Of a DNA stretch of 22,535 bases, positions 4,329 through 18,778 are shown in pieces. Where the stretch lies: IMG/VR virus record IMGVR_UViG_3300048672_000066, positions 1 to 22,535 of that record; one strand, written 5' to 3'. Below the pieces are notes generated by a model. That model saw nothing but the letters and a program-made list of their open reading frames with translations. It was not told the DNA's origin and did not search any database. This stretch comes from a virus. The position numbers and the translations under genes are program-made. Numbering within the stretch: the stretch's first letter is position 1; every line of letters starts with the position of its first letter.

Positions 4329-4912
4329 GTTCGTACCTTGATTTGCATGGAGCCGTTAGCGGGTTGACCCTTGCGCTCTGATAGGCGTCTGACAGAATCA
4401 AGGAGCGGAGTGATGTACCCGTCCAGTTGTGCCACCTGCTCTGTGTCTCGGATGTGTTTTGCACACTCCCTAGCTGTTGCGTAGAGATACAAGTCCTCTG
4501 CGTTATCCAAGAGCCAGTTCGTGGTGTTGGAGTTGCTTAATGCGCTGATTTTCGGAATGTAGTAAAGGACATAGGCTTGTCCCGTTCCAGCGCCGTTAAT
4601 GCGGAGTTGGTTGTTTTCCAGGGCATACGATGTGGGCACGCTTGTGCTGGCGATTACCGATTCGCTCTTGTAGTCAAGTGCGTACTCAGCAGACCCGTAA
4701 TTGACCGTTACCTTGCTAACAGACTGAAAATCACTAGGCAGGGTTGCATATTCGCCCGTAGTGGTTCCCGCTACTGAAATAGCCAATGCCTTGACGTTTA
4801 GTTCGCGGAATAGAAACGCCTCTGCCCTGCGGATAAACGTTGGCATTAGCGTGCCTAGATCGTCGCGGTGGATGTAAGCCGCAACGTCTGCTTGCAATGT
4901 GGCGTATGTCAT
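4325..4912 (-). CDS. Head-tail adaptor protein
   Basis: This 195-residue protein opens with MTYATLQADVAAYIHRDDL and continues FIRRAEAFLFRELN, then EYATLPSDFQSVSKVTV. That pattern is common to podovirus/siphovirus adaptor proteins which bind the lower face of the portal ring. Helical N- and C-terminal parts flank a beta-rich middle (residues about 50-115), and the C-terminal helix (DAEDLYLYATARECAKHI and following) is also typical. The length is close to P22 gp4 (166 residues). It lies after capsid and before fibre and nozzle genes and overlaps both neighbours as ATGA, so it is likely co-translated with them. Confidence 0.8.
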   Translation of the reverse strand: MTYATLQADVAAYIHRDDLGTLMPTFIRRAEAFLFRELNVKALAISVAGTTTGEYATLPSDFQSVSKVTVNYGSAEYALDYKSESVIASTSVPTSYALENNQLRINGAGTGQAYVLYYIPKISALSNSNTTNWLLDNAEDLYLYATARECAKHIRDTEQVAQLDGYITPLLDSVRRLSERKGQPANGSMQIKVRT

Positions 4913-5258: not shown

Positions 5259-5296
5259 AATCGGCGGTTTCTTGGTCGCTGCCGTTATCCCATTAT

Positions 5297-5316
5297 TGGA
5301 AAGTGGTAAAGGCTTA
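5297..5316 (-). repeat. Late intergenic motif, copy R1
   Basis: Minus-strand core CCTTTACCACTTTCCA (5312-5297), one base shorter than the other copies, preceded by TAAG. The TAA is the stop codon of the HNH endonuclease gene ending at 5314. It lies about 80 bases before the 102-aa gene. See the finding on the motif family for the promoter hypothesis. Confidence 0.75.
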
Positions 5317-5895
5317 GATATGCCTCCACGTTTTCCTAGCTCTGACTCGCTCTATGGCTGTATTTGAAACGCCATAAAGTTTTGCGAGTTCAGCAATGGA
5401 AAGGGTTGATTCCCTTATGTTGATAACACTTGCGTTATTCAACTTGCTTGCCCCGTGCGATTCGCCTTTAAGTCCGCTTGGAAGGTTTAGCTTCCTGCCC
5501 CTAGCGAATGCGTCTTTAATGTTCTGGCTTTGTGTACCAACCTCTAAGTGGTTAGGGTTAACGCATCTTGGGTTATCGCACTTGTGCATAACAACCATGC
5601 CATCAGGTATCTCGCCATGATGTATTTCATACGAGAGCCTGTGAGATAGCTTGTGTTTTGCACCTTTGCCACCCATGCCCAAAGAGCCATAGCCCTTACC
5701 AACTAAACGACCAGTCCACAGCCAGCAACCGTCGGTCTTCTCTATGTGCCTAAAGAACCGTTCTTCAATGGTTCCCCTTGCACGAGTACCAATGGGGAGA
5801 AGTCCAGCCCGACGCTGCTGCATGTAATGCGTAGAACACATGCCACGCGCATTTATCGGGTTGGAACATCCATCCACACAACAAACCTTTTCCAT
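5314..5895 (-). CDS. Free-standing HNH endonuclease (HNH_3 type) with C-terminal HTH
   Basis: The 193-residue protein starts with a Cys/His cluster (C5, C6, C10, C20, H23) that could bind zinc. The HNH_3 core runs from about W58 to N125: SHRLSYE (H85), VMHKCDNPRCVNPNHLEVG with H104, C106, C111, N113 and H116, and N125. Residues 148-190 (SIAELAKLYGVSNTAIERV, then KTW) form a helix-turn-helix of the kind that follows many such nucleases and reads the target site. It lies between capsid and the 102-aa gene, a classic place for a selfish homing endonuclease. It is flanked by motif copies R2 and R1, and its stop codon is part of R1. The GGGGG ribosome-binding site can be hidden in a hairpin. Confidence 0.9.
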   Translation of the reverse strand: MEKVCCVDGCSNPINARGMCSTHYMQQRRAGLLPIGTRARGTIEERFFRHIEKTDGCWLWTGRLVGKGYGSLGMGGKGAKHKLSHRLSYEIHHGEIPDGMVVMHKCDNPRCVNPNHLEVGTQSQNIKDAFARGRKLNLPSGLKGESHGASKLNNASVINIRESTLSIAELAKLYGVSNTAIERVRARKTWRHI

Positions 5896-5897
5896 AA

Positions 5898-5924
5898 TTC
5901 CCCCAAAAAGTTACTAATGGGGAA
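5898..5924 (-). promoter_or_regulatory. Hairpin over the HNH ribosome-binding site
   Basis: On the minus strand TTCCCC (5924-5919) is complementary to GGGGAA (5903-5898), with a 15-base loop. The GGGG arm is the probable ribosome-binding site of the HNH gene starting at 5895. Pairing would lower translation, as is known for some T4 homing endonuclease genes. The regulatory role here is inferred. Confidence 0.45.
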
Positions 5925-5928
5925 ATAG

Positions 5929-5952
5929 TAGAAAGTTGGTAAAGGTTTGTTA
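5929..5952 (-). repeat. Late intergenic motif, copy R2
   Basis: Minus-strand core CCTTTACCAACTTTCTA (5945-5929), identical to copy R3, followed by CTAT. The upstream TAA, separated from the core by four bases (CAAA), is the stop codon of the major capsid gene. It lies about 35 bases before the HNH gene. Confidence 0.8.
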
Positions 5953-6924
5953 CGGTACTAGGTTGGTGATCTTCGCCTGCGCTGTAGGAGCGCGAACTGC
6001 CAAGCAGCAGTCAGCAGTAATCAGCACCTTGTCACTGTCGCCTGTCTTGGCAAGGGGGGTTTCTTTGAAACCATCCAAGAAAGCCAAGTCGAGGTAATCA
6101 GTGTTCAGCACGTAGGCTGTATCGGCACCAGCCAGCAGGTAGTGAGGAACAACAGTAAGTCCTCCGAAGTCGCTGAGATATACCTCTGCACCGCCGACGA
6201 TAGTTGCTTGTGCGCTCTTGCCGCCCTTCACATCGATACGGTTCTGGGCAACAGAGGCGAAGCCGGAGAACGTAGCTTTGTGAGATGGGGAAACATACAA
6301 CGCCTCGGCGAACTGGCCCGAAGTGGTGAAGATGTTTTGGCAAGCGGTGTCCAACAGCGTCTTAGTGAAAGCACGGTTAGTTCCAGCAGTAATAGCGGCT
6401 GTGGGAGCGCCAGAAGTCCAGGCGGCAGTAGCACCAGCACCGTTGTGCAACGGGTTGGATACGCACTGCACACCCAAGCCACCGGATTGACCAGCAACGG
6501 AAGTGGTAGCGGCGATAGCTACTTGTGTTGGAGACAGCACCATTGCTTCAATGTTGCGCTTCAACTCAAGCATCTTCTTGGCCTTGAGGTAAGCCATCTC
6601 GGAGCCACGGCCCGCCTTCTTCACCAGATTAGCGCGGCGAGAAACGCCCACTGTGCCGTTGAAGATTTGCAGGTAGTTGCCCAGACGCTGAGTAGCGGTC
6701 TGTGCGTCCAATGTCACGTCGTCACCGTCAATCATTTTGTTGCTAGCCGAGGCTGAGCCCAAAACATCGGTTTGCCACTCGTGGAAATCAGTCGTAGCAG
6801 TAACGCGACCCATTGCCGAAGACAGAGGTGTTTCTGTCGGCGATGTGTTGAAGATTTTGTCAATCAGGTCTTCGCGGTTACCCTTTAGGGAAGCCTTCTG
6901 ATATAGATTGGTTGGAACAGTCAT
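5950..6924 (-). CDS. Major capsid protein, SU10/DUF5309 type
   Basis: This 324-residue protein has the look of the SU10-like HK97-fold capsid family: TNLYQKASLKGNREDLIDKI near the start, then TPLSSAMGRVTATTDFHEWQTD and AQTATQRLGNYLQIF, then VGVSRRANLVKKAGRGSEMAYLKAKKMLELKRNIEAMVL (the long spine-like helix, residues about 93-130), and a C-terminal VGGAEVYLSDFGGLTVVPHYLL region. There is no sign of a protease or delta domain. It follows the scaffold gene by 15 bases, with AGGAGT placed well as ribosome-binding site. It builds the head shell. The family call is strong. Confidence 0.9.
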   Translation of the reverse strand: MTVPTNLYQKASLKGNREDLIDKIFNTSPTETPLSSAMGRVTATTDFHEWQTDVLGSASASNKMIDGDDVTLDAQTATQRLGNYLQIFNGTVGVSRRANLVKKAGRGSEMAYLKAKKMLELKRNIEAMVLSPTQVAIAATTSVAGQSGGLGVQCVSNPLHNGAGATAAWTSGAPTAAITAGTNRAFTKTLLDTACQNIFTTSGQFAEALYVSPSHKATFSGFASVAQNRIDVKGGKSAQATIVGGAEVYLSDFGGLTVVPHYLLAGADTAYVLNTDYLDLAFLDGFKETPLAKTGDSDKVLITADCCLAVRAPTAQAKITNLVP

Positions 6925-6939
6925 TTAAGACTCCTTTGT

Positions 6940-7908
6940 TTACCGCAGTAGTGCGGCTAGATCGTTTAGTTTTGCCCGACCAGACCGGAACTTTTGTTCC
7001 ACAGCCTTGTCGATGCGCTCTTGTGCGGGTTGTCCTTGTCGCGTGGGCATTCGCGGTGCAGATTCGGCCTTTTTGGTTACCTCAGTCTTCTTAGACTGGA
7101 GTTCCCGATAAGCTGCGGCGTCTTTCATCATCAAAACCAGACGATGGTCATAAACATTGCCCAATTCCTGCTCTGAAAAGCCGTAGGTCTTATTTACCTT
7201 GCCGAAAATCTCAGCAAGTTTTGGCTTGTCAATCTTTTGCTGCTCAAGCACTTCCCATGTCTTCTGGTACTGCTTGGCAATCTCCGCTTGGCTTTGCTGC
7301 TGCCGTTGCGCCTCTGCTGCCTGCTTCTCGCCTTGAATCTGTTGGTCAAGTTGCGAAAGGTAAGCGCCGATTTGCCGCTGGCGTTGCTGCTCTGCCACCC
7401 ACGCAGCCGGGTCAGATTGCGCCAATTGCGCCATCTCTGCCTCCGACTTAATCCCAGCCATACCAACAACAGCCGCCCGAGTCACCTCAGCTTGTGTCAG
7501 ATACTGGCTACGGATTTCTTCGTGTTTTTGAGTGAGGAACTTCACCGCTTCCGACTCACGCTCAGCTAGGGCCTGGGTCTTCTTGGTGTAATCCTTTTGG
7601 CGCATCAAGGCTTTAGGGAGTTCTTCCGGGGTGAACTCAACCGTTTCCTCTGTGCCGTCCTCGTTTTTGACCTTGAAGGTCACTTTGGTTTCAGCGGGTG
7701 CAGTCTCTTCCTCTTCTGGTTCTTCACCGTCCGATTCGTCGCTGTCGCTGTTTGCTTCCTCTTCCGTGTCTCCGTCTTCGGAGGTGGATTCGTCGGCGGT
7801 TTCGGCTTGTTCCTCTTGCTCTGGTTCCTCTTCAGGAGTGTCAGAAAGAAACGCTGCCAAGTCTGGAAGTTCGCCTGATTCGGGTGCTGATTCAGCTTGT
7901 CCGGTCAT
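6940..7908 (-). CDS. Head scaffolding protein
   Basis: The protein has 322 residues. Residues 1-72 are extremely acidic (runs of Glu, Asp, Ser), followed by a short beta segment (KVTFKVKNEDGTEETVEFTP) and a long Gln/Glu/Lys/Ala helical region, about 95-240, likely coiled coil. The basic C-terminal end (KFRSGRAKLNDLAALLR) is typical of scaffold proteins that touch the capsid subunit. It lies directly before the capsid gene, as expected. AAAGGT precedes the ATG. Composition and position make the assignment fairly safe although scaffolds are poorly conserved in sequence. Confidence 0.85.
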   Translation of the reverse strand: MTGQAESAPESGELPDLAAFLSDTPEEEPEQEEQAETADESTSEDGDTEEEANSDSDESDGEEPEEEETAPAETKVTFKVKNEDGTEETVEFTPEELPKALMRQKDYTKKTQALAERESEAVKFLTQKHEEIRSQYLTQAEVTRAAVVGMAGIKSEAEMAQLAQSDPAAWVAEQQRQRQIGAYLSQLDQQIQGEKQAAEAQRQQQSQAEIAKQYQKTWEVLEQQKIDKPKLAEIFGKVNKTYGFSEQELGNVYDHRLVLMMKDAAAYRELQSKKTEVTKKAESAPRMPTRQGQPAQERIDKAVEQKFRSGRAKLNDLAALLR

Positions 7909-7922
7909 GGTGTACCTTTGTC

Positions 7923-7950
7923 AAAAACCCTCCCTATGGCACTAAGAGGG
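7923..7950 (-). terminator. Weak terminator or attenuator before the scaffold gene
   Basis: On the minus strand CCCTC (7950-7946) pairs with GAGGG (7932-7928) over a 13-base loop and is followed by TTTTT. It lies between the 100-aa gene and the scaffold gene. The stem is only five pairs, so read-through is expected. It could set the scaffold/capsid transcript level relative to the upstream gene. Confidence 0.35.
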
Positions 7951-7989
7951 CTTGCGGCGTCTCTCGACGGTCGCTAATAGGTTAAGTGC

Positions 7990-8292
7990 CTAACCGTTGG
8001 ATGCTCTGCGAAAGAAACGTCTTACCTGCGTTTCGTCCCGCTCATTGTCTAAATCAATCCTGCGCTGCGCCATCTTTCCGCTTTCCACCAAGCCTGAAAG
8101 GATTGATTCAAACTTGTCTGTCAGCTTGACCAGTTGCAACAGCAATAGCTGGCCCTCACGATCACGCACAGGGCAGTCTTTCCAGTTCTGGATAACCGCA
8201 TCCTTGAGCGTCTGCATCGCGGCCTTGTAAGCCTCGTTCTCAAGAACAGCAGTAGCCTCTTTGCCGCGCAATACGTCGAATTTATCGGTCAT
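7990..8292 (-). CDS. 100-aa protein at head of the scaffold/capsid block
   Basis: A mostly helical protein: EATAVLENEAYKAAMQTLKDAVIQNWKDCPV, then REGQLLLLQLVKLTDKFESIL, then a very basic tail VRRFFRRASNG. This layout (small helical protein with a DREGQ-like middle just before scaffold) is common in short-tailed phages, where it is annotated only as a conserved phage protein. I cannot name a function. No ribosome-binding site is visible: the ATG lies ten bases after the core of motif R3, so if R3 is a promoter the mRNA would be nearly leaderless. Confidence 0.75.
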   Translation of the reverse strand: MTDKFDVLRGKEATAVLENEAYKAAMQTLKDAVIQNWKDCPVRDREGQLLLLQLVKLTDKFESILSGLVESGKMAQRRIDLDNERDETQVRRFFRRASNG

Positions 8293-8302
8293 AGAGACAT
8301 AT

Positions 8303-8323
8303 TAGAAAGTTGGTAAAGGATTA
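8303..8323 (-). repeat. Late intergenic motif, copy R3
   Basis: Minus-strand core CCTTTACCAACTTTCTA (8319-8303) preceded by TAAT and followed by ATAT. This is the only late copy whose TAA is not the stop of a recognisable gene. It lies between a strong terminator (8384-8406) and the 100-aa gene start at 8292, so transcription of the scaffold/capsid block probably has to restart here. Confidence 0.8.
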
Positions 8324-8383
8324 CGACTTTGGCCCCTGTGCGTGGTTTAAGTCAGGGGGAATTTGGCACGACCACCGGGCATG

Positions 8384-8406
8384 AAAAAAACCCGCCGGAG
8401 CGGGTT
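8384..8406 (-). terminator. Rho-independent terminator after the GH5-like gene
   Basis: Minus strand: AACCCGC, loop TCCG, GCGGGTT, followed directly by more T residues (seven in a row on that strand counting the arm). It lies 20 bases after the stop of the glycosidase gene. The stem is GC-rich and the T tract good, so it should end the transcript that covers portal and the accessory virion genes. Confidence 0.85.
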
Positions 8407-8426
8407 GGGTTGTACTGTTGGGGTGG

Positions 8427-10553
8427 TTATTCGTTGACAACCGTGACGCCGCCGTTCGTCAGAGTCAGTGCGCTTGGGCTAAGGTCAAGAATGCCGCCAT
8501 TTGGAAATGCGCGGATATGCAGCATTGACTGGCGCAAAACATTGCCTTGCATGTGGGCTATCACATCGTCCGGCGTCACGCTCTGACAGATTGTTATGTC
8601 CTGCATCGAAATTGGAGCGCCCGACGTATCACCGAGAAACTTCATTGACGTTGCGACAGGGATAGCACCAAGAACGCCAGAAGCAGTTATTGACTTCCAA
8701 AACAATCCGTTCACATACGAAGTGATTGATGTATTCCCATTCAAGGCTTCATAGGCAACTGCAAAGTGATTCCACTCCCCAACAACTAAGTCAGGATTGG
8801 TGCCGTTTGTATTGCCTGCCCCACCAGCAGCGGCGCGAAATTCTGTATATGCACTTGTTGCCCCAGTTGAGTCACCAAGACTTACCAGCCCGTTGAAGTT
8901 CGATGCCCCTCTCGCGTTTATGAATACCTCAAACGCATTCAAAGACGCATTGATCTTTAGCCAGAATAGAACTGCATAGTTGGTTGCAGAGTGCGCTGCG
9001 GTTGATGTTGCGCTAAGTACGGATGATGCAACCCGGCCAGTGCCATTTGTCATTGCGGACGTTGGATGGAACTGGGCCTTTAACGACTTCAGGCCAACAG
9101 ATGGCTTTGCGGGCGCTGGCCTTGCTGCATTGCCTTCCGATGCAATATCGAGGAACGTCGTTGACCGGGTTCCTGATGCAGCAATATACCAAGTAGATTG
9201 ACCCGCCCCGGCAGCAAGGGTCGCATCCTGCACATTCCACCACATTGCGTAAGACGCATATTGGGATACGGCCTTTTGCAGTTTGCGCTTCTTTGCATAA
9301 CTTGCATCAGCTTCGTTTGCCGTAGAAACACCAAACTCACCTACGATTAGCGGCTTGCCCTGCGCCGAGGCCATTGCAGCAAATGCTCCCACGATGACAG
9401 ACATCCCTTCGTAGCCCAAGGTTGTCGCATTGGTATTTGGGAAGGTCGAATTTGTCGCTGTGTTATGTCCAGTGAAGTTAAACCCATCGCTGTAAAAGTG
9501 GAGCGTCCAAGCATCTAGTCCAGCAAACATCCGTCCATATATAGCAGACACGTTATCGGGAGTGGGTCTTGTCTTAATTACATTCGCCCCCATAGCCGAC
9601 AAGTCTGTCGTTATGATTTTTGATGGGTTGATTGCTCTTGCGGCATCAGCGAGATAGCTGAAATAGATACCCCATTGCGTACTCGTTGGCGCGGCTGCGC
9701 CAGTTTCATCGTAAACATACTCGTTGCCGATGGAATAAACACCGAAAGCGGGATGATCTTTGTAGCGACTAAAAAGCCACTGTGTCGCAGATTTTGCATA
9801 CACAGCCGTTTTGGTGTTTGTGGTCGTATATGCAGTGGTCAGCGTTTCGCCTTGTGCTATCGGAAGGATCGACTGCCCCCAGAAATCGCACACATGCAAC
9901 TTCAAACCGTTGGCAGCAGCAGCGTCGAAAGCGGCATCCAATGCAGCAATGTAGCTTGTGCGAATATTGGAGTCATTCATCGTCGCTGGCATCTGTGCAG
10001 TCGAATGAACAATCGTCAAATACTCTGCTGAACTAAAGCACGGCAGCGCTACGCGCACCATGTTTGCGCCTGTGGATTTGATATACGCAAGCTGGGCAGT
10101 TCTGTTGGCCGATGTGGCGGATATTGTACTGAGCAGGATTTCGTAGATCAGCGAGTAATAGTTGAACCCGATTGGCTTTGCGCCCAACGCAGACAACTTT
10201 GCGGCTGGCGAATACGTGATTGGCAAACTGCCTCCACTCGGCCCCACTAGCCCCGTGACGTTGCCAGAGGCGTCGAACGAATACTTGGCATTCTGGTCGT
10301 AAGCATTAACAGGAGTAACGCCCGTACTGTAGTCAATCGAGCTATCAGCATCAGCCGTAACCCGAACCACAGCACCAGAGGCGTAAGGCCCGAACGTAGC
10401 GCCTCCGCTAGAGTTAGTCGCAAGGACAGTCCCCGCAGACGTTCCGCGCGTCACCGTTGCTGAGTAAGTTCCCGTAATGCTGCTAATAGCGATAGATTCG
10501 CCCGCCAAAAGCGGAATATCCTTGATCTCGCCGTTTCTGATTGTGTTACTCAT
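8427..10553 (-). CDS. GH5-like glycosidase with LamG-like C-terminal domain, probable virion depolymerase
   Basis: The protein has 708 residues. Residues 1-115 form a beta-rich, Ser/Thr/Gly lead, perhaps for virion attachment. Residues about 125-445 resemble a TIM-barrel GH5-like (cellulase superfamily) catalytic domain: GFNYYS at 129, NMVRVAL with R167, GLKLHVCDFW (216-225), SIGNEY with N277 and acid/base E278, LHFYS with H352 and Y354, IVGEFGV with nucleophile E406, and MWWN with W438/W439. Residues about 520-665 look like a LamG/concanavalin-type beta sandwich (AVLFWLKI, then GEWNHFAVAY, then SYVNGLFW). There is no signal peptide. The protein would cut a surface polysaccharide at the cell exterior. 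The substrate cannot be read from sequence. GGGGATGGA precedes the ATG. A strong terminator follows. Confidence 0.8.
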   Translation of the reverse strand: MSNTIRNGEIKDIPLLAGESIAISSITGTYSATVTRGTSAGTVLATNSSGGATFGPYASGAVVRVTADADSSIDYSTGVTPVNAYDQNAKYSFDASGNVTGLVGPSGGSLPITYSPAAKLSALGAKPIGFNYYSLIYEILLSTISATSANRTAQLAYIKSTGANMVRVALPCFSSAEYLTIVHSTAQMPATMNDSNIRTSYIAALDAAFDAAAANGLKLHVCDFWGQSILPIAQGETLTTAYTTTNTKTAVYAKSATQWLFSRYKDHPAFGVYSIGNEYVYDETGAAAPTSTQWGIYFSYLADAARAINPSKIITTDLSAMGANVIKTRPTPDNVSAIYGRMFAGLDAWTLHFYSDGFNFTGHNTATNSTFPNTNATTLGYEGMSVIVGAFAAMASAQGKPLIVGEFGVSTANEADASYAKKRKLQKAVSQYASYAMWWNVQDATLAAGAGQSTWYIAASGTRSTTFLDIASEGNAARPAPAKPSVGLKSLKAQFHPTSAMTNGTGRVASSVLSATSTAAHSATNYAVLFWLKINASLNAFEVFINARGASNFNGLVSLGDSTGATSAYTEFRAAAGGAGNTNGTNPDLVVGEWNHFAVAYEALNGNTSITSYVNGLFWKSITASGVLGAIPVATSMKFLGDTSGAPISMQDITICQSVTPDDVIAHMQGNVLRQSMLHIRAFPNGGILDLSPSALTLTNGGVTVVNE

Positions 10554-10562
10554 TCCATCCCC

Positions 10563-11429
10563 TTAAGCTAGTAAAAGCATTTCAATATCTTCCTCGTCCT
10601 GCATCTGCTGTGCCAACAGAGACAGGGCCACTATCTGCATCCAATCCTGCTGCTGAATCAGCGCCGGAATGTCTGCGTTAATCGCATACCGTTGGGCCAA
10701 CTGTCCCAATAGGTCAATATCTACCGTTTCGTGCGCTACAGCCTCATAAACGCGCTTCTTAGCCCTTCTGCGCGCCTGTCTGCTTGTGTTCTGCGCCTTC
10801 TCTATCGCTTCCTGTGCTGCCTGTTCAGCCTCGATAAACGCATCAGCATCCTCTGCCCTGCTAAATACGTGAATCTTCTTTCCACGCTTTACATACCAAG
10901 GCTTAAGGTTGATTTCTGCGGAGTAACCCGCAACCTGTTCACCAGACCAAACCAGACTTGCACTGCTACCAGTGATCGCGTAGCTACCGGGGTTAGCGGT
11001 GAGGCTGTAAGCCGTTGCACCTGACGCCTTTGTCAGTACCGCGCTACCACCAGTAAGCGAGTAACTACCCGCTAGGGCCGTGATCTTCCTGCCAACCTTG
11101 AGATTGGCTGCACCACCTGTCAGGCTGTAAGTGCCTGCTAGAGCGGTTATCTTTCTGCCTACCTTGAGGCTTGCCGCTCCACCCGTTAGCGAGTAGCTGC
11201 CTGCGTTACCTGTCAGGCTGTAGGCAATCGCCCCGCCCGTCTTTGTCAGGACAGCAGAGCCGCCTGTTAGCGAGTAAGAGCCAGCTAGGGCAGACAGCGA
11301 GTAATTGACAGACCCACCAGCACCAACGCTGAGAATGTCAGACGAGAACCATCCTTCCGGTGGCGCGTCGTGCTGGAACCACCCATCCGGGTCGGCTGCT
11401 GAGTCAAAGAAGCCGACAACATCAGCCAC
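10563..11429 (-). CDS. Repeat-containing virion-associated protein, 288 aa, GTG start
   Basis: It starts with GTG, with GGAG six bases upstream. The N-terminal part carries a doubled PDGWF/PEGWF motif (residues 14-28). Residues 47-160 hold five copies of a G(S/T)Y(S/A)(L/I)TG motif, at G50, G77, G99, G121 and G148, separated by VLTK, SLKVGRKI or NLKVGRKI linkers. Half-copies YSLSALAG, YSLTGNAG and YSLTANPG lie between. Residues about 175-288 are different: a basic, then helical Ala/Gln-rich segment (ADAFIEAEQAAQEAIEKAQ) and an acidic LLA end. Such SYSLTG repeats are common in phage tail-associated proteins. The role is probably structural or adhesive. The exact function is unknown. Confidence 0.75.
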   Translation of the reverse strand: MADVVGFFDSAADPDGWFQHDAPPEGWFSSDILSVGAGGSVNYSLSALAGSYSLTGGSAVLTKTGGAIAYSLTGNAGSYSLTGGAASLKVGRKITALAGTYSLTGGAANLKVGRKITALAGSYSLTGGSAVLTKASGATAYSLTANPGSYAITGSSASLVWSGEQVAGYSAEINLKPWYVKRGKKIHVFSRAEDADAFIEAEQAAQEAIEKAQNTSRQARRRAKKRVYEAVAHETVDIDLLGQLAQRYAINADIPALIQQQDWMQIVALSLLAQQMQDEEDIEMLLLA

Positions 11430-11432
11430 GGG

Positions 11433-11609
11433 TTACTCCACGGGTGGTGTAAATGTCACCCCATCAAACGTCCAACCCAACGATTCCTCACCAACCTGCT
11501 CTTGCAGAATCCAATCCGGGTAACGCTCTTTGGTATTTTGTAGCTGATGCTCGTCAATGCTCACGCAAAGCTGAACAACACCATCACGGTCAATTCCAAT
11601 CAGAATCAT
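11433..11609 (-). CDS. 58-aa tail-associated protein
   Basis: A complete short frame from ATG at 11609 to TAA at 11433 reads MILIGIDRDGVVQLCVSI, continues through QNTKERYPDWILQEQ, and ends GWTFDGVTFTPPVE. It fits exactly between its neighbours: two bases after the stop of the 395-aa gene and three bases before the GTG of the repeat protein. The GWTFDG...PP end is typical of small proteins or domains linked to phage fibres. It lacks membrane or signal features. I infer a minor virion or assembly role. Confidence 0.75.
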   Translation of the reverse strand: MILIGIDRDGVVQLCVSIDEHQLQNTKERYPDWILQEQVGEESLGWTFDGVTFTPPVE

Positions 11610-11611
11610 GG

Positions 11612-12799
11612 CTATTTCTCCATGACTGTTAGTTCACCGTTGCAGAATGTCGCAGTAGTCGCGCTGGCAAGGTAGCAGTGCAGGATGCAAGAGCCGTTGT
11701 ATAGCTTGATTCCTGGGCTACCAATCACCTTTTGTGCCATGACGTTTGCGATGGTTGTGCCGATGTTGGCAATGTCGCGGCAGATCATGAAACTCACAGC
11801 ACCAGCAACAAGCGATGTGCCTAGTGCGATGCTTTCGATAGACTTCACGCCAGTATCACCAGCCGCAAGGTTGAACCATGTAATAGTGCCAATGACAGGG
11901 CTAATCGTGATCTGCGAACCAGCGATAGCGGTCAGCGTTGCGGTGCGCCCTGCTGTTCCTTGACTGTTTGTATAGCTGATTGTCGAATTAGCAATTGCCG
12001 CAGCGTTGGTATTGGCTGTGGTGGTCAGCATGGCAATCATGCAGCCTTCGCCGTTTGTCGCGCCATTCACATCACGCGCGGGAAGCGTCGGAGTTGTAAT
12101 CGCTTGCGCCGTGGTTGTTGTAACCACAATGCCAGAGTTCACCCACAGCACATCAAAGAATAGATGTGAGTGGTTAACGTTGGCCTGCATCTGAAGTTCT
12201 GTTAAGAAGTTGGTTCCGGTAGCAGCGTTGGCAATAGGAATGCAGCCAAAGTCGGCGCTATTTGTTCCATCCGTAACGCGACCATTGACGCCGGGAGTAC
12301 CGGGGTTCCACGCTCCGGGGAATCCTGCATCCTTTGATGTGCAGTACCAATAGCCCACCGTGTCGGCGGCTGTGCCTGATTTCATAAACGGAACAGTGCG
12401 CCCGGTGTATGCACCCAAGCCAGCAGGCGGATACTCAGCACCAGCAGCGTCACGGTGAACCCACGATCCATCCTCACGGTATGCCAAGTTCTCACCGGGA
12501 AGTAGATTGAACTGAATCAACTCAACGGTATTTGTTCCATCGAAGTGCTGCACAGCCACATTGCAGTTTGTGCCTGCGCTGTTGTTGGTGACGTACAAAC
12601 CCTTAAGGTTGCGTTGTGTTGACGCACCGGGGGATGTGACGATGTTGGTCGTTGTCGCTGTGGTGATCTTTGTGTTAAGCCGACCCGGTGTTACCGTAGT
12701 GCCAGACAGGTCAACGTAAGATGCGTGCACGTCGATGCTGTTCGCCGCCGCAGACGTAACCAGCTTGATCAGGTCGCTTGTGGATGTGAGCAGAATCAT
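11612..12799 (-). CDS. Phage structural protein, 395 aa
   Basis: It begins MILLTSTSDLIKLVTSAAANSIDVHASYVDL, then TTTNIVTSPGASTQRNLKGLYVTN and LLPGENLAYREDGSW. This N-terminal beta-sandwich-like pattern occurs in many phage virion proteins and usually forms a small decorating or base domain. The rest (residues about 130-395) is Thr/Ala/Gly rich and beta in character, with no catalytic motif that I can see. The gene sits in the accessory virion cassette between portal and the glycosidase. The protein is probably on the virion surface. Its specific function is unknown. Confidence 0.75.
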   Translation of the reverse strand: MILLTSTSDLIKLVTSAAANSIDVHASYVDLSGTTVTPGRLNTKITTATTTNIVTSPGASTQRNLKGLYVTNNSAGTNCNVAVQHFDGTNTVELIQFNLLPGENLAYREDGSWVHRDAAGAEYPPAGLGAYTGRTVPFMKSGTAADTVGYWYCTSKDAGFPGAWNPGTPGVNGRVTDGTNSADFGCIPIANAATGTNFLTELQMQANVNHSHLFFDVLWVNSGIVVTTTTAQAITTPTLPARDVNGATNGEGCMIAMLTTTANTNAAAIANSTISYTNSQGTAGRTATLTAIAGSQITISPVIGTITWFNLAAGDTGVKSIESIALGTSLVAGAVSFMICRDIANIGTTIANVMAQKVIGSPGIKLYNGSCILHCYLASATTATFCNGELTVMEK

Positions 12800-12802
12800 G
12801 GA

Positions 12803-13213
12803 TTAGCTCGCTGTAAACACGTTGCCGGAGAACGTGAAGGTGAAGGTGTCAGTGTTGGCAAGACTGATGCTTGAGCCGTAGTCCCACTGAGCAACCGGAG
12901 TGCCTGTGGTCGTGTCCCATAGAACGGCGTATTGGAATGGGCCAACAGCACCCGTAGCAGTCCACACAGCGGGGTTATTCAGCGTAAAGGTGTATGTACC
13001 AGCCGACTGCGTAGCACTCGCAACAGTGCAAGAATTACCGCCAGCGGTATAACCGTTGCCAGTAGCCAGATCATCCGTCCCGGCAACAAAACTTGTCTTA
13101 GCCACAGCGGACGCATTCGTAAGCGCGATCTTCCACGAGTCCGAGCCGACATTTATGTTCTCCAGCAGCGGTTCAATCGCTGCGGTACATTTGGTATAGG
13201 AAGCTGTTGGCAT
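12803..13213 (-). CDS. Small beta-rich virion protein, 136 aa
   Basis: The sequence pattern (DSWKIALTNASAVAKTSF, then LATGNGYTAGGNSC, then AVWTATGAVGPFQYAVLWD and AQWDYGSSISLANTDTFTFTFSGNVFTAS) is familiar from short phage virion proteins encoded close to portal or capsid genes. The whole product looks like one beta sandwich. A decoration or minor structural role is likely. It starts three bases after the portal stop codon, with GGGGTAA upstream of the ATG. Confidence 0.75.
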   Translation of the reverse strand: MPTASYTKCTAAIEPLLENINVGSDSWKIALTNASAVAKTSFVAGTDDLATGNGYTAGGNSCTVASATQSAGTYTFTLNNPAVWTATGAVGPFQYAVLWDTTTGTPVAQWDYGSSISLANTDTFTFTFSGNVFTAS

Positions 13214-13216
13214 AAA

Positions 13217-15505
13217 TTACCCCTGAACGTGTTGGATACCGAGCGCCTTGCCGTTGGCATCACGGATGATTTGTTTTGGTGCGCTCATTTGTGCAACCAC
13301 GGCTTGTAGACCTTGGAGGACTTGCAGCATGTCATCCTTGTGCTGGATAACGTCAGACGGTGGAGCGCCTCGAAGTTTCATCTCTTCGATGTAAACCTTG
13401 GTCTGTGCGTCAAATTCCGTCTTCCACTTGTCAAACTCAAGCTGCTGCTGTGCGAGTTGCGCGTCATATTGGGCCTTGAGCATTTCTCGCTCTGAGTCGC
13501 GCTGGTCGTTAGCCGCTTGCAGTTCAAGATTGGCCTGAATCTCTTTCATCTTCAGTTCAGCCTTGATCTGCTCAACTTCACGGGTCATCTGCGTTTCGGC
13601 TTGGAACTTCTGAATATCCGCTTGTGTTTCAGCTTGGAACTTCTGCGCGTCGCCTTGCTGCTTCATCTGCTCAATCTGCAAAGGCAAAGGCGGCTGTTGT
13701 GGCTGCGGAGGCAGGGTTGATGGGTCTTGGACGAAGTTTTGAACGTCCTTGAATCCTGCGTTTTCGATCTGTTTAGCAGCAGTTGCATACAGATGTTTCG
13801 GAGTAGTGATACCGAACTGCAAGCCAGCGGTTTGCATCTGCCAGATAGCCATTAACTGAGCCGCTTGCTGTGCCTTGTCGCCCGTACCAAGACCTACGTT
13901 CACGGTCATGTCGTATTGGTCGCGCCATGTGTTGGGGTCGTACTCAACGAACTTGTCCCGCAGACGGAAGCAGAGCTTTTCCATGCCGCCATCTGTCAAC
14001 ACCTTGAGGATGCCCATGAAAATAGGCTTCATCAGTGTCTCAGCGACGATACGGGCAATCAGTTCGATACGCTGCATTGCCGCCGATTGGTCGATCTGTC
14101 GGCCTGTGGCTGTGTTGTTCAGCGAATCAGGGTTCAAGCCCATCGACGTACGGGATACGCCTGTACGGTTCTCCCGCATACCCTGCACATATTCCAGCAT
14201 GGGCATGGAGGAACCAGCAGTAAAGGGGACGATGTTGTCGGTTACTGCGTTCGGGTCTCTTACCCGAACAATTCCACCAATACGACTATCCAGCAAATCA
14301 TCAAGATTAGCCAGAGGAGACCAATTAGCATCCGTTAGAACATTCTTGCGGGGGTTGTTGGTCAGCTTGAGGTTATCCAGCGTCTGGCGGAGCAGGTCTG
14401 TATGCAGTTTCTGTAAGTCAGACACGGCGTCAGCCATTGACATACCGTCCCAACGGTGTGTGTTCAGGATTGGGCTAGACGTAGCGATAGGAACGTGAGA
14501 GCAAACCTCACGCTTGAGAATCTTGTTTTGCAGGCGATGGACGCACAGACGTTCGGCGATGCCGTCACCGTCAGCATCAGCCAGGATGTACTCAATCCGC
14601 AGCCAACCCTCAGCCATCGAATCATCTTCGCTCTGGTCGCGATCGTGTCCAAGCGTGCCGGATTGCACATCAGTCTGGTTGACCTTGTTCAACCTGAATT
14701 GAGCATCTGCGGAGAAGTCGGAAACGTCAGAGCCGCGCAAGTCCTCTGCGGTTACGTCAAACCCCATCATCTGAAGGTCTGACAGCGTAACGTGCATTAA
14801 CCGTGCCACATACGGGCACTCTTGGAGCAGTGGGCTAGTCCAATCGCGCTCAACAAGCAGGTCTTCAGGCGAGAAAGCCTCCACCTTGACGATGGTCTTT
14901 TGCTCTGTTTTCTTAAGCCGCCCGGAGTAGCCCATTACAGGCTGACCCGTCATCAGGTCAATCTCGGGCTGTCCGGTCTGCGGGTCAATGACGGGCGCAG
15001 GGTTTGCTTCCTGAATCTCTGCGTCTTCCTCTTGCAGAAGCATTGCCAGCATCTCTTCACTGGCATTCTTGAACGGTACGCTAGAGACTGTTTCCTGCGT
15101 TTCCTTGCGCCACATCACGGCACAGTTACGCACCGTCAGCATGTCCTTTACAGCGGTGTATAGGACTAGGAAACCGTTGTTTTGCTTATGGAATACATAA
15201 TTTACCGCATCAGTCGCTTGCTCTGCAGACTCTACATCTGCCGCCGTCGCTGGTTCAAATTGAACAGCCTTGTCTGTCGATGTGAAGACCTTGAGGATGG
15301 CTGGCAACGTCCACTCAACTACGTCTTGAATGTCTGACGCAACAATCTGCGACCACCCATCATCTTCATTCCCATAGGGAAGTCTGTAATATTCCCTGAG
15401 TGCCATCTCGCGCTCAGTCGCAAGATTCCCATGGACATAGTGAGATGCCGAATCTTCCTTACGATTCAGAATCTCCAGCAATTCGTCGTCTGCCATCTTT
15501 GCCAC
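13217..15505 (-). CDS. Portal protein
   Basis: At 762 residues it matches the large P22-type portal class. Recognisable stretches are AVQFEPATAADVESAEQATDAVNYVFHKQN (80-110), FSPEDLLVERDWTS (211-224), DDSMAEGWLRIEYILADADGDGIAERL (294-320), PILNTHRWDGMSMADAV (345-361), LEYVQGMRENRTGVSR and GLNPDSLNNTATG (437-468). Residues 608-715 form a long Gln/Glu/Lys coiled-coil barrel region with a duplicated QKFQAETQ motif (621-639). The start is GTG at 15505, with GGGG about seven bases upstream. An ATG three codons later is the alternative. The portal is the DNA gate at the head vertex and the docking ring for terminase. Confidence 0.9.
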   Translation of the reverse strand: MAKMADDELLEILNRKEDSASHYVHGNLATEREMALREYYRLPYGNEDDGWSQIVASDIQDVVEWTLPAILKVFTSTDKAVQFEPATAADVESAEQATDAVNYVFHKQNNGFLVLYTAVKDMLTVRNCAVMWRKETQETVSSVPFKNASEEMLAMLLQEEDAEIQEANPAPVIDPQTGQPEIDLMTGQPVMGYSGRLKKTEQKTIVKVEAFSPEDLLVERDWTSPLLQECPYVARLMHVTLSDLQMMGFDVTAEDLRGSDVSDFSADAQFRLNKVNQTDVQSGTLGHDRDQSEDDSMAEGWLRIEYILADADGDGIAERLCVHRLQNKILKREVCSHVPIATSSPILNTHRWDGMSMADAVSDLQKLHTDLLRQTLDNLKLTNNPRKNVLTDANWSPLANLDDLLDSRIGGIVRVRDPNAVTDNIVPFTAGSSMPMLEYVQGMRENRTGVSRTSMGLNPDSLNNTATGRQIDQSAAMQRIELIARIVAETLMKPIFMGILKVLTDGGMEKLCFRLRDKFVEYDPNTWRDQYDMTVNVGLGTGDKAQQAAQLMAIWQMQTAGLQFGITTPKHLYATAAKQIENAGFKDVQNFVQDPSTLPPQPQQPPLPLQIEQMKQQGDAQKFQAETQADIQKFQAETQMTREVEQIKAELKMKEIQANLELQAANDQRDSEREMLKAQYDAQLAQQQLEFDKWKTEFDAQTKVYIEEMKLRGAPPSDVIQHKDDMLQVLQGLQAVVAQMSAPKQIIRDANGKALGIQHVQG

Positions 15506-15509
15506 GGCA

Positions 15510-15536
15510 ATACCCCAGTGTTTAATTACGGGGTAT
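15510..15536 (-). promoter_or_regulatory. Hairpin over the portal ribosome-binding site
   Basis: A perfect 7-bp inverted repeat, ATACCCC (15536-15530 on the minus strand) and GGGGTAT (15516-15510), with a 13-base loop. The GGGG arm is the likely ribosome-binding site of the portal gene. It follows motif R4 with the same spacing as the hairpin after R2. No T tract follows, so translational control or mRNA 5'-end protection is more likely than termination. Confidence 0.5.
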
Positions 15537-15538
15537 CG

Positions 15539-15559
15539 TAGAAATGTGGTAAAGGATTA
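15539..15559 (-). repeat. Late intergenic motif, copy R4
   Basis: Minus-strand core CCTTTACCACATTTCTA (15555-15539) preceded by TAAT and followed by CGAT. The TAA is the stop codon of the HNH gene ending at 15557. It lies about 33 bases before the portal start. Confidence 0.8.
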
Positions 15560-16006
15560 CAGAAGGAAGCCGCGCTCCCGCATAAAGTCAACAGGATGCT
15601 TTGCGTGCTTCTGGTTGTTGCACGAAGCCCTTAAAAGCTGGATATTGTCATCCGTGTTAGTTCCACCAAGAGCCAGCGGAACAATATGGTCTAAGTGGTA
15701 TTTGTCGCCCAACGGAAGGCCGCAACAAGCACATTTGCCTTGCTGGAGTGAAAACAACTTCTCCGGCAAGCCCTTTGATAACTTACCACCAACAGACCTT
15801 ACGCGCGCCCTTCTGTTTTGGTTCTTGACGCTTACAGCCTCTGGGTTATTTCTATACCAATTGGCGTTGTATTCTTTGCATTTGTCGGGGTTTGCTTTGT
15901 ATTTCTCAGCAGCGTCACCACAAGGCTTGCACTTCCCGCTTGGGTATCTGTTCGATTCGCCGCACTTCTTGCACGGTTTGCAAGGGGCTAAAATAGGCTC
16001 AGCCAT
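15557..16006 (-). CDS. Free-standing HNH endonuclease between terminase and portal
   Basis: I chose the ATG at 16006, which has AGGAGT four bases upstream, over an ATG at 16045 that lies inside an inverted repeat. The 149-residue product opens with a Cys-rich part (C9, C12, C15, C26, C29) that may bind zinc. The HNH core is KCACCG (C92, C95), YHLDHIVPLALGG (H104, D106, H107), DDNIQLL (N121) and SCNNQKHAK (C129, N130, K133). All expected residues are present, so the nuclease looks intact. The place between terL and portal suggests a mobile homing endonuclease, though HNH proteins next to terminase can also help packaging in cos phages. Its stop codon is part of motif R4. Confidence 0.88.
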   Translation of the reverse strand: MAEPILAPCKPCKKCGESNRYPSGKCKPCGDAAEKYKANPDKCKEYNANWYRNNPEAVSVKNQNRRARVRSVGGKLSKGLPEKLFSLQQGKCACCGLPLGDKYHLDHIVPLALGGTNTDDNIQLLRASCNNQKHAKHPVDFMRERGFLL

Positions 16007-16035
16007 GATGACTCCTGTAACGAGTTGTTTGGTTA

Positions 16036-16069
16036 GAGCCAACATTGGATTGCCGTCCTTTGTTGGCTC
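16036..16069 (-). promoter_or_regulatory. Inverted repeat in the leader of the HNH gene
   Basis: GAGCCAACA and TGTTGGCTC form a perfect 9-bp inverted repeat around a 16-base loop, between the terL stop and the HNH ribosome-binding site. An in-frame upstream ATG (16045) lies at the loop/arm border. There is no T tract on the minus strand, so termination is unlikely. RNA processing, mRNA protection or translational control of the nuclease are possible. Confidence 0.5.
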
Positions 16070-16086
16070 GACTATTTTAATGCTTT

Positions 16087-17361
16087 CTAGGCAACAAACC
16101 TAGAACGTCCGTACCTGATGGGCTTGACCGAGCCGTTATGGTTGGACAGCGAATCGGCAACGATGCAGGTATAGCGGAATGCGTCAGCACCGTGCGAATA
16201 CTCGTCGTGCAGCGCCGTTCCCGCTTCATTGGTCTGTTTGTTGATATGCCTGCGGTAGCGCTTCAAGCATTCCACTAGGCGCTTGGTCTTGTCTTTGTCG
16301 AAGTAAATCCGGCTAAACGTCATCCGAGCAGCCCTAATTCCCTCTTCTATGCCCATGTTTGGGGTCTGCTCCACGGTACAGCCCAGCGCTTCCATGATTT
16401 CCTGTGCTGACTTGCCTGTCTTAAAGTCTTTGGCAAACCCATCATGCGGCAGGTAATGAACACCCCAGTTCAGAGGCATGTTCTTGAGGGTCATCACGTA
16501 ATCGGCTAGGGTTCTATGGCTATCTTCGATGTAGTCCACAATCCGAAGCTCAGAGGCTGACCGTTGGACAAGGATGATGGACATGGAGTCATTCCAGCCC
16601 AAGTCCCATATTGCGTGCGTCTTCAGTAGCGGGTCATTAGGCACAGCCCTAATGCGCTCTTCACGCTCAGCTAGAGCTACTTCCTCAAAGTAGATAGCCC
16701 CTGTAACGGCTGGTAGGCACTCACCCTCCCAAACATTGCGGTATTCCTCGGGCTTCATTGTGGCTTCAGCGTGTTCGCGCTCTGCCTTTAGAACCTCGGG
16801 GAAATAAGGGTTATCCTGCCAGTTCATTAGCACGGACACGCAATCAGGCGGGGGATTGATTACAAAGAACTGATGGGTAGGGTCAGTCTCTAGCTCTGGG
16901 TTGTACGTTACCCATATCTCCGAGCCTTCCTTGCGGATTGTCGGAATCAGCGTTTTCCAAGACTTAGCGCTGATTGCTTGGGCTTCTTCGCACCAGACAA
17001 TATCCACACCCTCAAACGACTTGAGGCCCGTCGCGGTAATGTCTGACAGACCGGAGAAGAATATCTGTGAACCGTTGGGGCCGCGAATCTCAGTCTGTAG
17101 CACCTCGAAAGCGCTGGATAGGCCCATTGCCTCTATCTGGTCGCTCAGTAGCTGGTGAACCGATTGCTGAATGTTCTTCTGGATTTCGCGGGTACACAGT
17201 ACACGTAGCTGCTTTTGCATACACAGCAGCAGAAGCGCCCTAGCCACTGTCCAGGACTTGCCAGAACCACGCCCACCCCGCAGAACCTTGTAGCGCGATG
17301 GCTTGAATAGGAACTGTGTAGCCTTGGGAAACCTTACGTCGATCTTAGTCAAAGTGGACAT
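16087..17361 (-). CDS. terL: Terminase large subunit
   Basis: The protein has 424 residues, the usual length of the PBSX-like terminase family. The ATPase half shows Walker A GGRGSGKS (29-36), Walker B VDIVWCEEA (119-127, with E125/E126 as catalytic Glu) and coupling motif WVTYNPE (150-156). The nuclease half shows IWDLGWNDSM with D253, HDG with D307, and DEYSHGADAFRY with D386 and D393. All look intact. It packages DNA into the head by ATP hydrolysis and cuts the concatemer. The start lies inside the end of the small-subunit gene (17-base overlap), typical of translational coupling. Confidence 0.93.
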   Translation of the reverse strand: MSTLTKIDVRFPKATQFLFKPSRYKVLRGGRGSGKSWTVARALLLLCMQKQLRVLCTREIQKNIQQSVHQLLSDQIEAMGLSSAFEVLQTEIRGPNGSQIFFSGLSDITATGLKSFEGVDIVWCEEAQAISAKSWKTLIPTIRKEGSEIWVTYNPELETDPTHQFFVINPPPDCVSVLMNWQDNPYFPEVLKAEREHAEATMKPEEYRNVWEGECLPAVTGAIYFEEVALAEREERIRAVPNDPLLKTHAIWDLGWNDSMSIILVQRSASELRIVDYIEDSHRTLADYVMTLKNMPLNWGVHYLPHDGFAKDFKTGKSAQEIMEALGCTVEQTPNMGIEEGIRAARMTFSRIYFDKDKTKRLVECLKRYRRHINKQTNEAGTALHDEYSHGADAFRYTCIVADSLSNHNGSVKPIRYGRSRFVA

Positions 17362-17716
17362 TGAGCGAAAAGTTACCCGCTACCTCGTGCTTAGTCGGAG
17401 CGTTGAACCCCTGCATGGCGTTCAATTCCTTGATTGCAGACACTTTCTCATTAGCCCTAGCCTCTTCCATTGTCGCTATCTCAGAAAGCGCTCTGAGGCT
17501 GTCTATGCGCGTCCAAATGGCTGTTTCTGCTAGTGCGTTCTTAAGCGCAGCTACCCTCGGGCCAACCTCGGGGTGTCGCATAAGGTCGCTGGCCTCGTCG
17601 TAAACCGTCTGATCGCTTGAGTTTTCGCAGTCATACGCTGATCGGTATGCGTCTGCTTGTGTCATTCCACCCGCTACAGCTTGGGCGAATGCTTCTTGTT
17701 TGGCAGTTAATGCCAT
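17345..17716 (-). CDS. terS: Terminase small subunit
   Basis: A 123-residue protein whose first part is an HTH of the terminase_2 type: LTAKQEAFAQAVAGGMTQADAYRSAY (3-28), then YDEASDLMRHPEVGPRVAALK (39-59). A helical oligomerisation part follows (about 60-100). It recognises the packaging site on phage DNA and brings in TerL. AAGGA lies eight bases before the ATG. It overlaps terL. Confidence 0.9.
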   Translation of the reverse strand: MALTAKQEAFAQAVAGGMTQADAYRSAYDCENSSDQTVYDEASDLMRHPEVGPRVAALKNALAETAIWTRIDSLRALSEIATMEEARANEKVSAIKELNAMQGFNAPTKHEVAGNFSLNVHFD

Positions 17717-17753
17717 GTGCGAGTTCCTTCGTCAATAAGGATTGTTCGCCGAA

Positions 17754-17769
17754 AACGGGTTTCCCCGTT
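17754..17769 (-). terminator. Small hairpin with GAAA loop before terS
   Basis: Minus strand AACGGG, GAAA tetraloop, CCCGTT, followed by TTC. Six pairs with a stable GNRA-type loop, between the stop of a 20-residue mini-ORF and terS. The T tract is short, so it is at best a weak terminator. It may instead be an RNA stability element or part of a packaging site. Confidence 0.35.
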
Positions 17770-17772
17770 AGT

Positions 17773-17835
17773 TCAGCACTTCTTACCTTTTCCCGGTTTG
17801 CAGGGGTCTTTTTTTGCGGGTTTCTTTGTAGCCAT
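17773..17835 (-). CDS. Lys-rich 20-residue mini-ORF before terS
   Basis: ATG at 17835 to TGA at 17773 encodes MATKKPAKKD followed by PCKPGKGKKC. GGAG lies seven bases upstream of the ATG. Eight of twenty residues are Lys and there are two Cys. The composition suggests a nucleic-acid- or membrane-binding peptide, or simply a leader peptide that controls terS. It is too short for statistics. The good ribosome-binding site and unusual composition are the only support. Confidence 0.4.
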   Translation of the reverse strand: MATKKPAKKDPCKPGKGKKC

Positions 17836-17847
17836 GTCGTTCTCCAG

Positions 17848-17931
17848 TTAATGACAGCATTGGGACTTGACCACAACGGCTGCTGTTCTGCCCTTCTCAG
17901 CCTCCCCGCGAAGGCACGCTGATCTGCCCAT
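17848..17931 (-). CDS. 27-residue mini-ORF with strong ribosome-binding site
   Basis: ATG at 17931 is preceded by AGGAG at four to five bases, the best ribosome-binding site in this gap. The product reads MGRSACLRGEAEKGRTAAVV and ends VKSQCCH. Its stop (TAA at 17848) is directly followed by the GGAG that serves the next mini-ORF, so the two would be translated in sequence. The protein is basic with three Cys. No family is recognised, and it may be a chance frame. Confidence 0.35.
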   Translation of the reverse strand: MGRSACLRGEAEKGRTAAVVVKSQCCH

Positions 17932-18029
17932 GAAGCTCCTGGCGGTTTCAGGTTGCATTCAGTGCACGGGGTTGATGGCCTGTTGGGTATCTCGCCAAAT
18001 GTGTGCCATGCCCCGCACGATTCAAATAC

Positions 18030-18050
18030 TACAAAGCTGGTAAAGGATTA
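18030..18050 (-). repeat. Late intergenic motif, copy R5
   Basis: Minus-strand core CCTTTACCAGCTTTGTA (18046-18030) preceded by TAAT and followed by GTAT. The TAA is the stop codon of the winged-helix gene. This copy marks the border between early/regulatory and late (terminase) genes. Confidence 0.8.
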
Positions 18051-18326
18051 GCGGACGTTGAAAATGCTGTTCACCCCGCATAAGCACTTGGCTACTGGCC
18101 CCCTACCTTGGATGAAATACATATACCGCCCGTCCCTAAACTCTCCCCGCTCTATTACTCCTATGAATTTCAGATTCCAAACTGCTGATTGAACCTGACC
18201 TTGGTTTAGTCCTGTGGATTGCTTAATCTCAAATATTGTTTGGCTTCCGTTCTCTATTGCTTCCAGACACCGCTTCATTGTTGACATAGGTTTGATAAAA
18301 GTCGGTTGCTGGTTTTTACGAAGCAT
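18048..18326 (-). CDS. Winged-helix small regulator
   Basis: The protein has 92 residues. Positions 16-70 (MKRCLEAIENGSQTIFEIKQSTGLNQGQVQSAVWNLKFIGVIERGEFRDGRYMYF) read as a winged helix-turn-helix: helices, a recognition helix around NQGQVQSAVWNL, then the wing IERGEFRDGRYMYF. The C-terminal end has KCLCGVNSIFNVR. It lies last in the early operon, directly after the LuxR-type gene with no gap, and before the terminase block. I infer a DNA-binding role, perhaps in late gene control. GGGGG precedes the ATG. The stop codon is the TAA of motif R5. Confidence 0.7.
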   Translation of the reverse strand: MLRKNQQPTFIKPMSTMKRCLEAIENGSQTIFEIKQSTGLNQGQVQSAVWNLKFIGVIERGEFRDGRYMYFIQGRGPVAKCLCGVNSIFNVR

Positions 18327-18524
18327 TTATTCCCCCTTGTAGAGTTCTCGTGTCCACATTGCACATAGCTGATTGGTCGTCTTGGCCTCGTTGCGCTCCC
18401 TAGCTGTAGCAACATGCGATTCAATGGTTCTGACGCTGCGGCCTAGCTTGTCTGCAATCTGCTTGGCTAACAGGCCCTTGCATAGCTGATGGACTACGCG
18501 CTCTTCCATGTGGGTTAGCTTCAT
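18327..18524 (-). CDS. LuxR-type HTH protein, probable late regulator
   Basis: I take the ATG at 18524, which overlaps the stop of the previous gene as ATGA, rather than one 42 codons further upstream. The 65-residue product is almost only a GerE/LuxR HTH: LTHMEERVVHQLCKGLLAKQIADKLGRSVRTIESHVATAR (3-42), with the family's KQIA, LGRS and RTIESH signature. There is no receiver or ligand domain. The place at the end of the early operon, just before terminase, is where phages often encode the activator of late genes. That role is inference. Confidence 0.8.
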   Translation of the reverse strand: MKLTHMEERVVHQLCKGLLAKQIADKLGRSVRTIESHVATARERNEAKTTNQLCAMWTRELYKGE

Positions 18525-18778
18525 GCCAACAACCTCATAAGCGTTACGTCCAAAGCGTCCAATTCGTCCATCTTGCGAATCAACCATGCCCGCTTTTGCC
18601 CATGCCAGCCCATCACTGGCCCCCTGTGGCAGTCCACGCAAAGAGCGCAACAGGTGTACTGGTTGCCTTGCTTAATGTGGTGCGCTTCACTTGGGCCGGG
18701 TTCTTCACAGACCGAGCAGGGAAGCTCCTTGACCCGCGCAAGGTGCAGGCGCTCTTTCTTGTTTATCTGGTTATTCAT
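18521..18778 (-). CDS. Ref/HNH-like nuclease, 85 aa
   Basis: Cys/His ligands are laid out as C21-x2-C24, H33-H34 (EAHHIKQGNQ) and C43/C44, C47, C50-H51 (CALCVDCHRG), then GWHGQKRAW. This is the pattern of the short Ref-like/HNH proteins seen in early regions of many phages. The P1 Ref protein is a RecA-dependent nuclease of this general fold. The product here is at the short end of the family. It could cut DNA during recombination or replication. Overlaps with both neighbours as ATGA. Confidence 0.72.
   Translation of the reverse strand: MNNQINKKERLHLARVKELPCSVCEEPGPSEAHHIKQGNQYTCCALCVDCHRGPVMGWHGQKRAWLIRKMDELDALDVTLMRLLA

Follow-up and report, generated by a model that had tools for sequence, protein, structure and literature searches.

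A repeated bipartite element and a co-occurring winged-helix gene as candidate parts of a late-promoter regulon in podovirus-like phages

The window – the whole 22.5-kb stretch of viral DNA analyzed here – carries its late genes on the minus strand, in the order terminase, HNH-2, portal, tail-like proteins, p100, scaffold, capsid, HNH-1, and then the adaptor and tail genes (Table 1). Immediately before this block is a gene for a 92-residue protein, which we call wH92. Its neighbor, on the side away from the late genes, is a LuxR/GerE-type helix-turn-helix gene (18327-18650, minus strand) that is absent from most relatives of this phage.

Table 1. Positions of the candidate promoters, the terminator and the principal genes within the window
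Feature	Position	Strand	Remarks
wH92, 92-residue winged-helix protein, candidate late activator	18048..18326	minus	motif co-occurrence, AlphaFold, Foldseek, residue-50/box covariation
Candidate late promoter 1, CCTTTACC-agctttg-TAGTAT	18026..18046	minus	1 nt past winged-helix gene stop; upstream of TerS/TerL
Terminase small subunit (TerS) gene, downstream of promoter 1	17345..17716	minus	
Terminase large subunit (TerL) gene, downstream of promoter 1	16087..17361	minus	
Candidate late promoter 2, CCTTTACC-acatttc-TACGAT	15535..15555	minus	1 nt past HNH-2 stop; upstream of portal; same gap in relatives
Portal gene, downstream of promoter 2	13217..15505	minus	phrog_1216
Intrinsic terminator AACCCGCTCCGGCGGGTT-TTTTT, just upstream of promoter 3	8389..8406	minus	
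Candidate late promoter 3, CCTTTACC-aactttc-TAATAT	8299..8319	minus	hexamer exactly 6 nt before p100 ATG; upstream of p100/scaffold/capsid
p100, conserved 100-residue gene before scaffold	7990..8292	minus	ATG coincides with predicted +1
Scaffold protein gene, downstream of promoter 3	6940..7908	minus	phrog_3927
Major capsid protein gene, downstream of promoter 3	5950..6924	minus	phrog_1328
Candidate late promoter 4, CCTTTACC-aactttc-TACTAT	5925..5945	minus	4 nt past capsid stop; upstream of HNH-1
Candidate late promoter 5, CCTTTACC-actttcc-AATAAT	5292..5312	minus	1 nt past HNH-1 stop; upstream of p102/adaptor genes

A repeated two-part element in the late region

The original prediction for this DNA described five minus-strand copies of a single conserved block of about 21 bp, all facing the late direction. 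Searching the window with CCTTTACCAACTTTCTA at up to three mismatches returned five matches, all on the minus strand, where 0.04 would be expected by chance. Four of these have zero to two mismatches and are copies from the predicted set (5929-5945, 8303-8319, 15539-15555 and 18030-18046); the remaining match, with three mismatches, falls inside an ORF (600-616). Once the element is understood as having two parts, the fifth predicted copy, at 5297-5312 (CCTTTACC-N7-AATAAT), falls into line with the rest, a reading that rules out a 1-nt deletion as the explanation for this copy. All five copies are thus real and late-facing. The motif is longer than the stretch first given for each copy, and its 21 bp are made up not of one block but of CCTTTACC, 7 nt, and a −10-like hexamer (TANNAT, or AATAAT at 5292). 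What had been seen as a short AT-rich tail belongs to this hexamer. Likewise, the statement that no sigma-70 promoter pair is present holds for the −35, for which a consensus scan at the window sites found no candidate, but it overlooked the −10-like hexamer just downstream.

The TAA in front of the element is, as had been proposed, the in-frame stop of the preceding gene at four of the five copies (18030, 15539, 5929 and 5297). The copy at 8303 has an intrinsic terminator in front of it instead, which is what one would expect if a new transcription unit began at promoter 3. In corrected form, the genes behind the copies are TerS/TerL (18030), portal (15539), p100/scaffold/capsid (8303), HNH-1 (5929) and p102/adaptor (5297).

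We observed two weaker resemblances to the element within genes. One, CCTTTACT-N7-GAAAAT, is a sixth match inside the adaptor ORF (4548-4568, minus strand), and a near-identical match is present in the adaptor gene of one relative (G013); it may reflect coding constraint or an internal promoter. The other, CCTTTACT-N7-CAAGAT (594-616, minus strand), is inside the ORF of a 508-residue virion protein and falls below the score threshold. In addition, HNH-1 (within 5314-5945) is flanked by two copies of the element, one past the capsid stop and one past its own stop, and is also found between two copies in the relatives G009 and G011. This endonuclease cassette seems to carry its own late-promoter copy.

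Conservation of the element and its predicted start site

An exact 17-mer search of viral contigs recovered five contigs with a single match each, which is about the level of chance. Because relatives carry diverged versions of the element, they had to be reached through proteins. We gathered them by their capsid, portal and p100 proteins and read about 40 contigs, almost all of them metagenomic, whole or nearly so. A regular expression with a fixed 6-nt spacing failed to catch the window's own 7-nt spacing, and a literature search with the motif string found nothing.

The original prediction would have been refuted had the motif been missing from related phages that keep the neighboring genes, and the comparison gave the opposite result. 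In relatives whose capsids are 70-91% identical to that of the window, the corresponding gaps contain this bipartite element, in the form CTTTACCA-N5-GACAAT/GATAAT. The gaps shared across many relatives are those from TerL to portal and from capsid to p102, the one upstream of p100 and the one downstream of wH92. The commonest form is (C/G)CTTTACCA-N5-GACAAT, and subtypes include GTTCTACCA...GATAAT, CGTCTACCA...GACAAT and TCATTACCA...GAAAAT. TACC is separated from the hexamer by 6 nt in most genomes and by 7 nt in the group to which the window belongs. We scanned with a matrix trained on 35 p100-upstream sites only, at a score cut-off of 16. Across 25 motif-bearing genomes (670 kb) this returned 98 sites on the late strand – a count that includes the p100 training sites – versus none on the opposite strand. 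Across 17 genomes scored as motif-less (517 kb), there were one late-strand match and three on the other strand. Within genome collections the capsid has a single relative (L217, 85%). It comes from a 6.8-kb contig belonging to a Gallionellaceae MAG, a hint that the host may be a betaproteobacterium.

The hexamer has features of a sigma-70-type −10 element. At the p100 sites its second position (−11) is A and its sixth (−7) is T in all 35 sequences, and the predicted start is about 7 nt downstream. As a −10 it is nonetheless poor, its first position usually being G in relatives. No column of the −35 region exceeded 0.23 bits across 96 distinct sites; the sole bias near it is at the base adjoining the block (0.34 bits).

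Sigma-70 polymerase starts transcription about 7 nt past the −10 element. In the 35 motif-bearing p100 sequences, the gap between hexamer and ATG is 6 nt in 28, 7 nt in five and 8 nt in two. Where no ATG lies at +7 to +9, the seventh base past the hexamer is A in 38 of 73 sites (p=3e-6); at the window's 18026 and 15535 sites it is C and T, respectively. An initiating G is not conserved at the predicted starts. Given the fixed p100-ATG gap and the A at the seventh base, we expect transcription to begin about 7 nt past the hexamer. This predicted start falls on the p100 AUG, so the p100 message probably begins at its AUG and is predicted to be leaderless. No Shine-Dalgarno sequence was found at p100 in the window, where most genes have one. 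p100, with a single weak relative among cultured phages (phage C72C1, 31%), would then be a conserved and apparently leaderless phage gene.

A winged-helix gene family that accompanies the element

We scored genomes as motif-bearing or motif-less by the element itself, mainly at p100 and blind to gene content, and clustered all ORFs of 22 large contigs (11 of each class) into families. wH92 was the only family present in all 11 motif-bearing contigs and in none of the 11 motif-less ones, the next best family showing a difference of 5. A profile search over whole contigs agreed with this co-occurrence; for locus searches one wH92 alignment (A1) proved too divergent, and a narrower one (A2) worked. 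A tree built from capsid, scaffold and portal shows four changes in motif state, each of them accompanied by a change in wH92. Since four independent changes cannot bring a sign test below p=0.125, we take this agreement as support, not proof. Of the mechanisms originally proposed, the favored one, in which the host polymerase works together with a phage-encoded activator at late promoters, is supported. The activator had been left unnamed, and our comparison points to the wH92 gene, not to the adjoining LuxR-type gene.

The wH92 gene is directly upstream of the terminase promoter, between the early/replication genes and the late genes; in one relative (G026) it follows the primase gene. The genes for lambda Q and P22 gp23 occupy a similar position, flanked by replication genes on one side and the late block on the other, and these regulators act directly downstream. 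Unlike Q, which acts on elongation at one late promoter, wH92 is accompanied by a box repeated at many promoters.

Single-sequence structure prediction for wH92 was poor, and alignment input gave a usable AlphaFold model (mean pLDDT 81) with the order of elements of a winged helix: helices at 16-25, 31-38 and 42-55, followed by strands at 58-62 and 68-72. The top PDB matches found by Foldseek were MarR-type and other winged helices, at a TM of about 0.6. The family also has a conserved C-terminal tail, CLxGVxSIFxV. The window protein has no Pfam or PHROG match above curated cut-offs, with scattered weak helix-turn-helix matches among 25 family members, and we found no convincing match to wH92 in cultured phages or genome contigs.

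Residue 50, in the recognition helix, covaries with the box: it is W, Y, F or H alongside CTTTACC, K or R alongside TCTACC, and in one case A alongside CATTACC. Few independent lineages contribute to this pattern and residue 30 has a slightly higher covariation z, so we regard it as only suggestive of direct reading of the box by residue 50. The pairing suggests a specificity code that is able to evolve.

A proposed activation mechanism and its alternatives

On the strength of these sequence comparisons, we consider it likely that the copies constitute a late-promoter regulon at which wH92, acting at the box, activates the host RNA polymerase. The activator box CTTTACCA would lie at about −27 to −18, followed by a weak −10 at −12 to −7 (TANNAT in the window, GACAAT or GATAAT in relatives) and by a transcription start about 7 nt past the hexamer. 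The host RNA polymerase would provide the core, and the hexamer would most likely be read by sigma-70-type recognition without a usable −35. The recognition helix of wH92 would bind the box and recruit or stabilize polymerase, perhaps touching it through the C-terminal tail. Once made, wH92 would switch on the terminase promoter just downstream of its own gene, along with the promoters for portal, the p100-scaffold-capsid block, HNH-1 and the adaptor genes. A promoter set with a single candidate regulator would represent a complete late switch for this uncultured podovirus-like phage group, of which we found no description. Counting against the model, the hexamer is a poor −10, a box inside the usual −35/−10 spacer is unusual for an activator, and two of the five window sites have C or T at the seventh base. 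A bolder version, which we put forward tentatively and find somewhat doubtful, has wH92, a single 92-residue winged helix, acting as a minimal promoter-specificity factor. From within the normal −35/−10 spacer, 6-7 bp from the −10, it would provide the upstream half of promoter recognition, and the host polymerase would need no sigma region 4 contact at any of these late promoters.

The closest known scheme, though only a partial parallel, is that of phage T4. At its middle promoters a MotA box centered at −30/−31 replaces the −35, and the host RNA polymerase uses an excellent −10 (PMC6755090). The proposed role of wH92 is similar, in that a phage DNA-binding protein would read a box in place of the −35. 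The differences are that the box center here is near −22 or −23 from the predicted start, about 8 bp closer, and that the −10 is poor; contacts between protein and polymerase must therefore differ. Unlike MotA, a two-domain double-wing protein that acts with AsiA in sigma appropriation, wH92 is one plain canonical winged helix; nor does the motif have a second gene family tracking it, as would be expected of an AsiA-like partner. The box lies nearer the −10 than in the T4 middle promoters compared, and these phages may thus illustrate a further means by which a small phage protein can redirect the host RNA polymerase. Mor and C of Mu and Ogr of P2 are also phage activators that work with host polymerase, at middle or late promoters that lack a good −35, and their sites lie further upstream. 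Activation of host polymerase where the −35 is poor is thus a feature that the proposed mechanism shares with them, although we found no similarity between wH92 and these proteins. For Mor, promoter activation with host polymerase is described in PMC4287176.

Alternatively, wH92 could bind the same sites but repress the late genes, in a lysogen for instance, with the hexamer serving as an ordinary host −10. The box does overlap polymerase territory (−27 to −18), and MarR-like folds are often repressors. We consider this improbable: lacking a −35 or an extended −10, such promoters would be very weak and would need help, a repressor would not require a fixed distance between box and hexamer, and the gene occupies the place of lambda Q between early/replication and late genes.

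Slightly less probable still is that a phage single-subunit RNA polymerase or a phage sigma factor reads the promoters, as in T7 or phiEco32, with wH92 a hitchhiker or an auxiliary. The conserved block is compact enough for this, at about 20 bp. The late elements of phiEco32 and 7-11 (tAATGTAtA or GTAAtg-16-aCTA) are read by a phage sigma (gp36 or gp47) with starts 6-9 nt away, and phiEco32-type phages, whose capsid and portal are related to those studied here, use it at a single-element promoter with a start 6-8 nt downstream (PMC8948821). The phages studied here likewise have conserved late elements with a nearby predicted start, but their promoter sequences are quite different, no such sigma gene family accompanies the motif and, indeed, no ORF family other than wH92 follows it. 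If a sigma with regions 2 and 4 were at work, its two elements should be about 16 bp apart, not 6 bp as here. Against a phage polymerase, the initiating G is not conserved and no RNA_pol domain was present among the large early ORFs tested in one 40-kb relative (G026); RNA_pol (PF00940) also gave no match in 14 relatives, in a search whose control was likewise silent.

That the LuxR/GerE-type protein is the activator is very unlikely and largely refuted: its GerE helix-turn-helix scores above the Pfam cut-off and its gene adjoins promoter 1, but it occurs in only 2 of 26 records searched, the window included, among which the motif is widespread. We give equally little credence to the repeats being HNH homing targets or boundaries, or signals for termination or mRNA processing. 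The two HNH genes do adjoin three of the five copies, yet relatives that lack HNH genes keep the element in the same gaps. The element has no stem-loop or T-run (the nearby terminator being separate), and its fixed ATG distance, like the A at the predicted +1, is characteristic of a promoter.

Two other features of the window lie outside its late block. A Cro/CI-type helix-turn-helix regulator gene (21540-21866, plus strand) is divergent from the late genes, and the phage may be temperate; an integrase-like gene is present in the relative G026. At 22340-22535 (plus strand), tandem repeats of cttgcggatgccaac would encode a pentapeptide-repeat protein that is cut by the window end.
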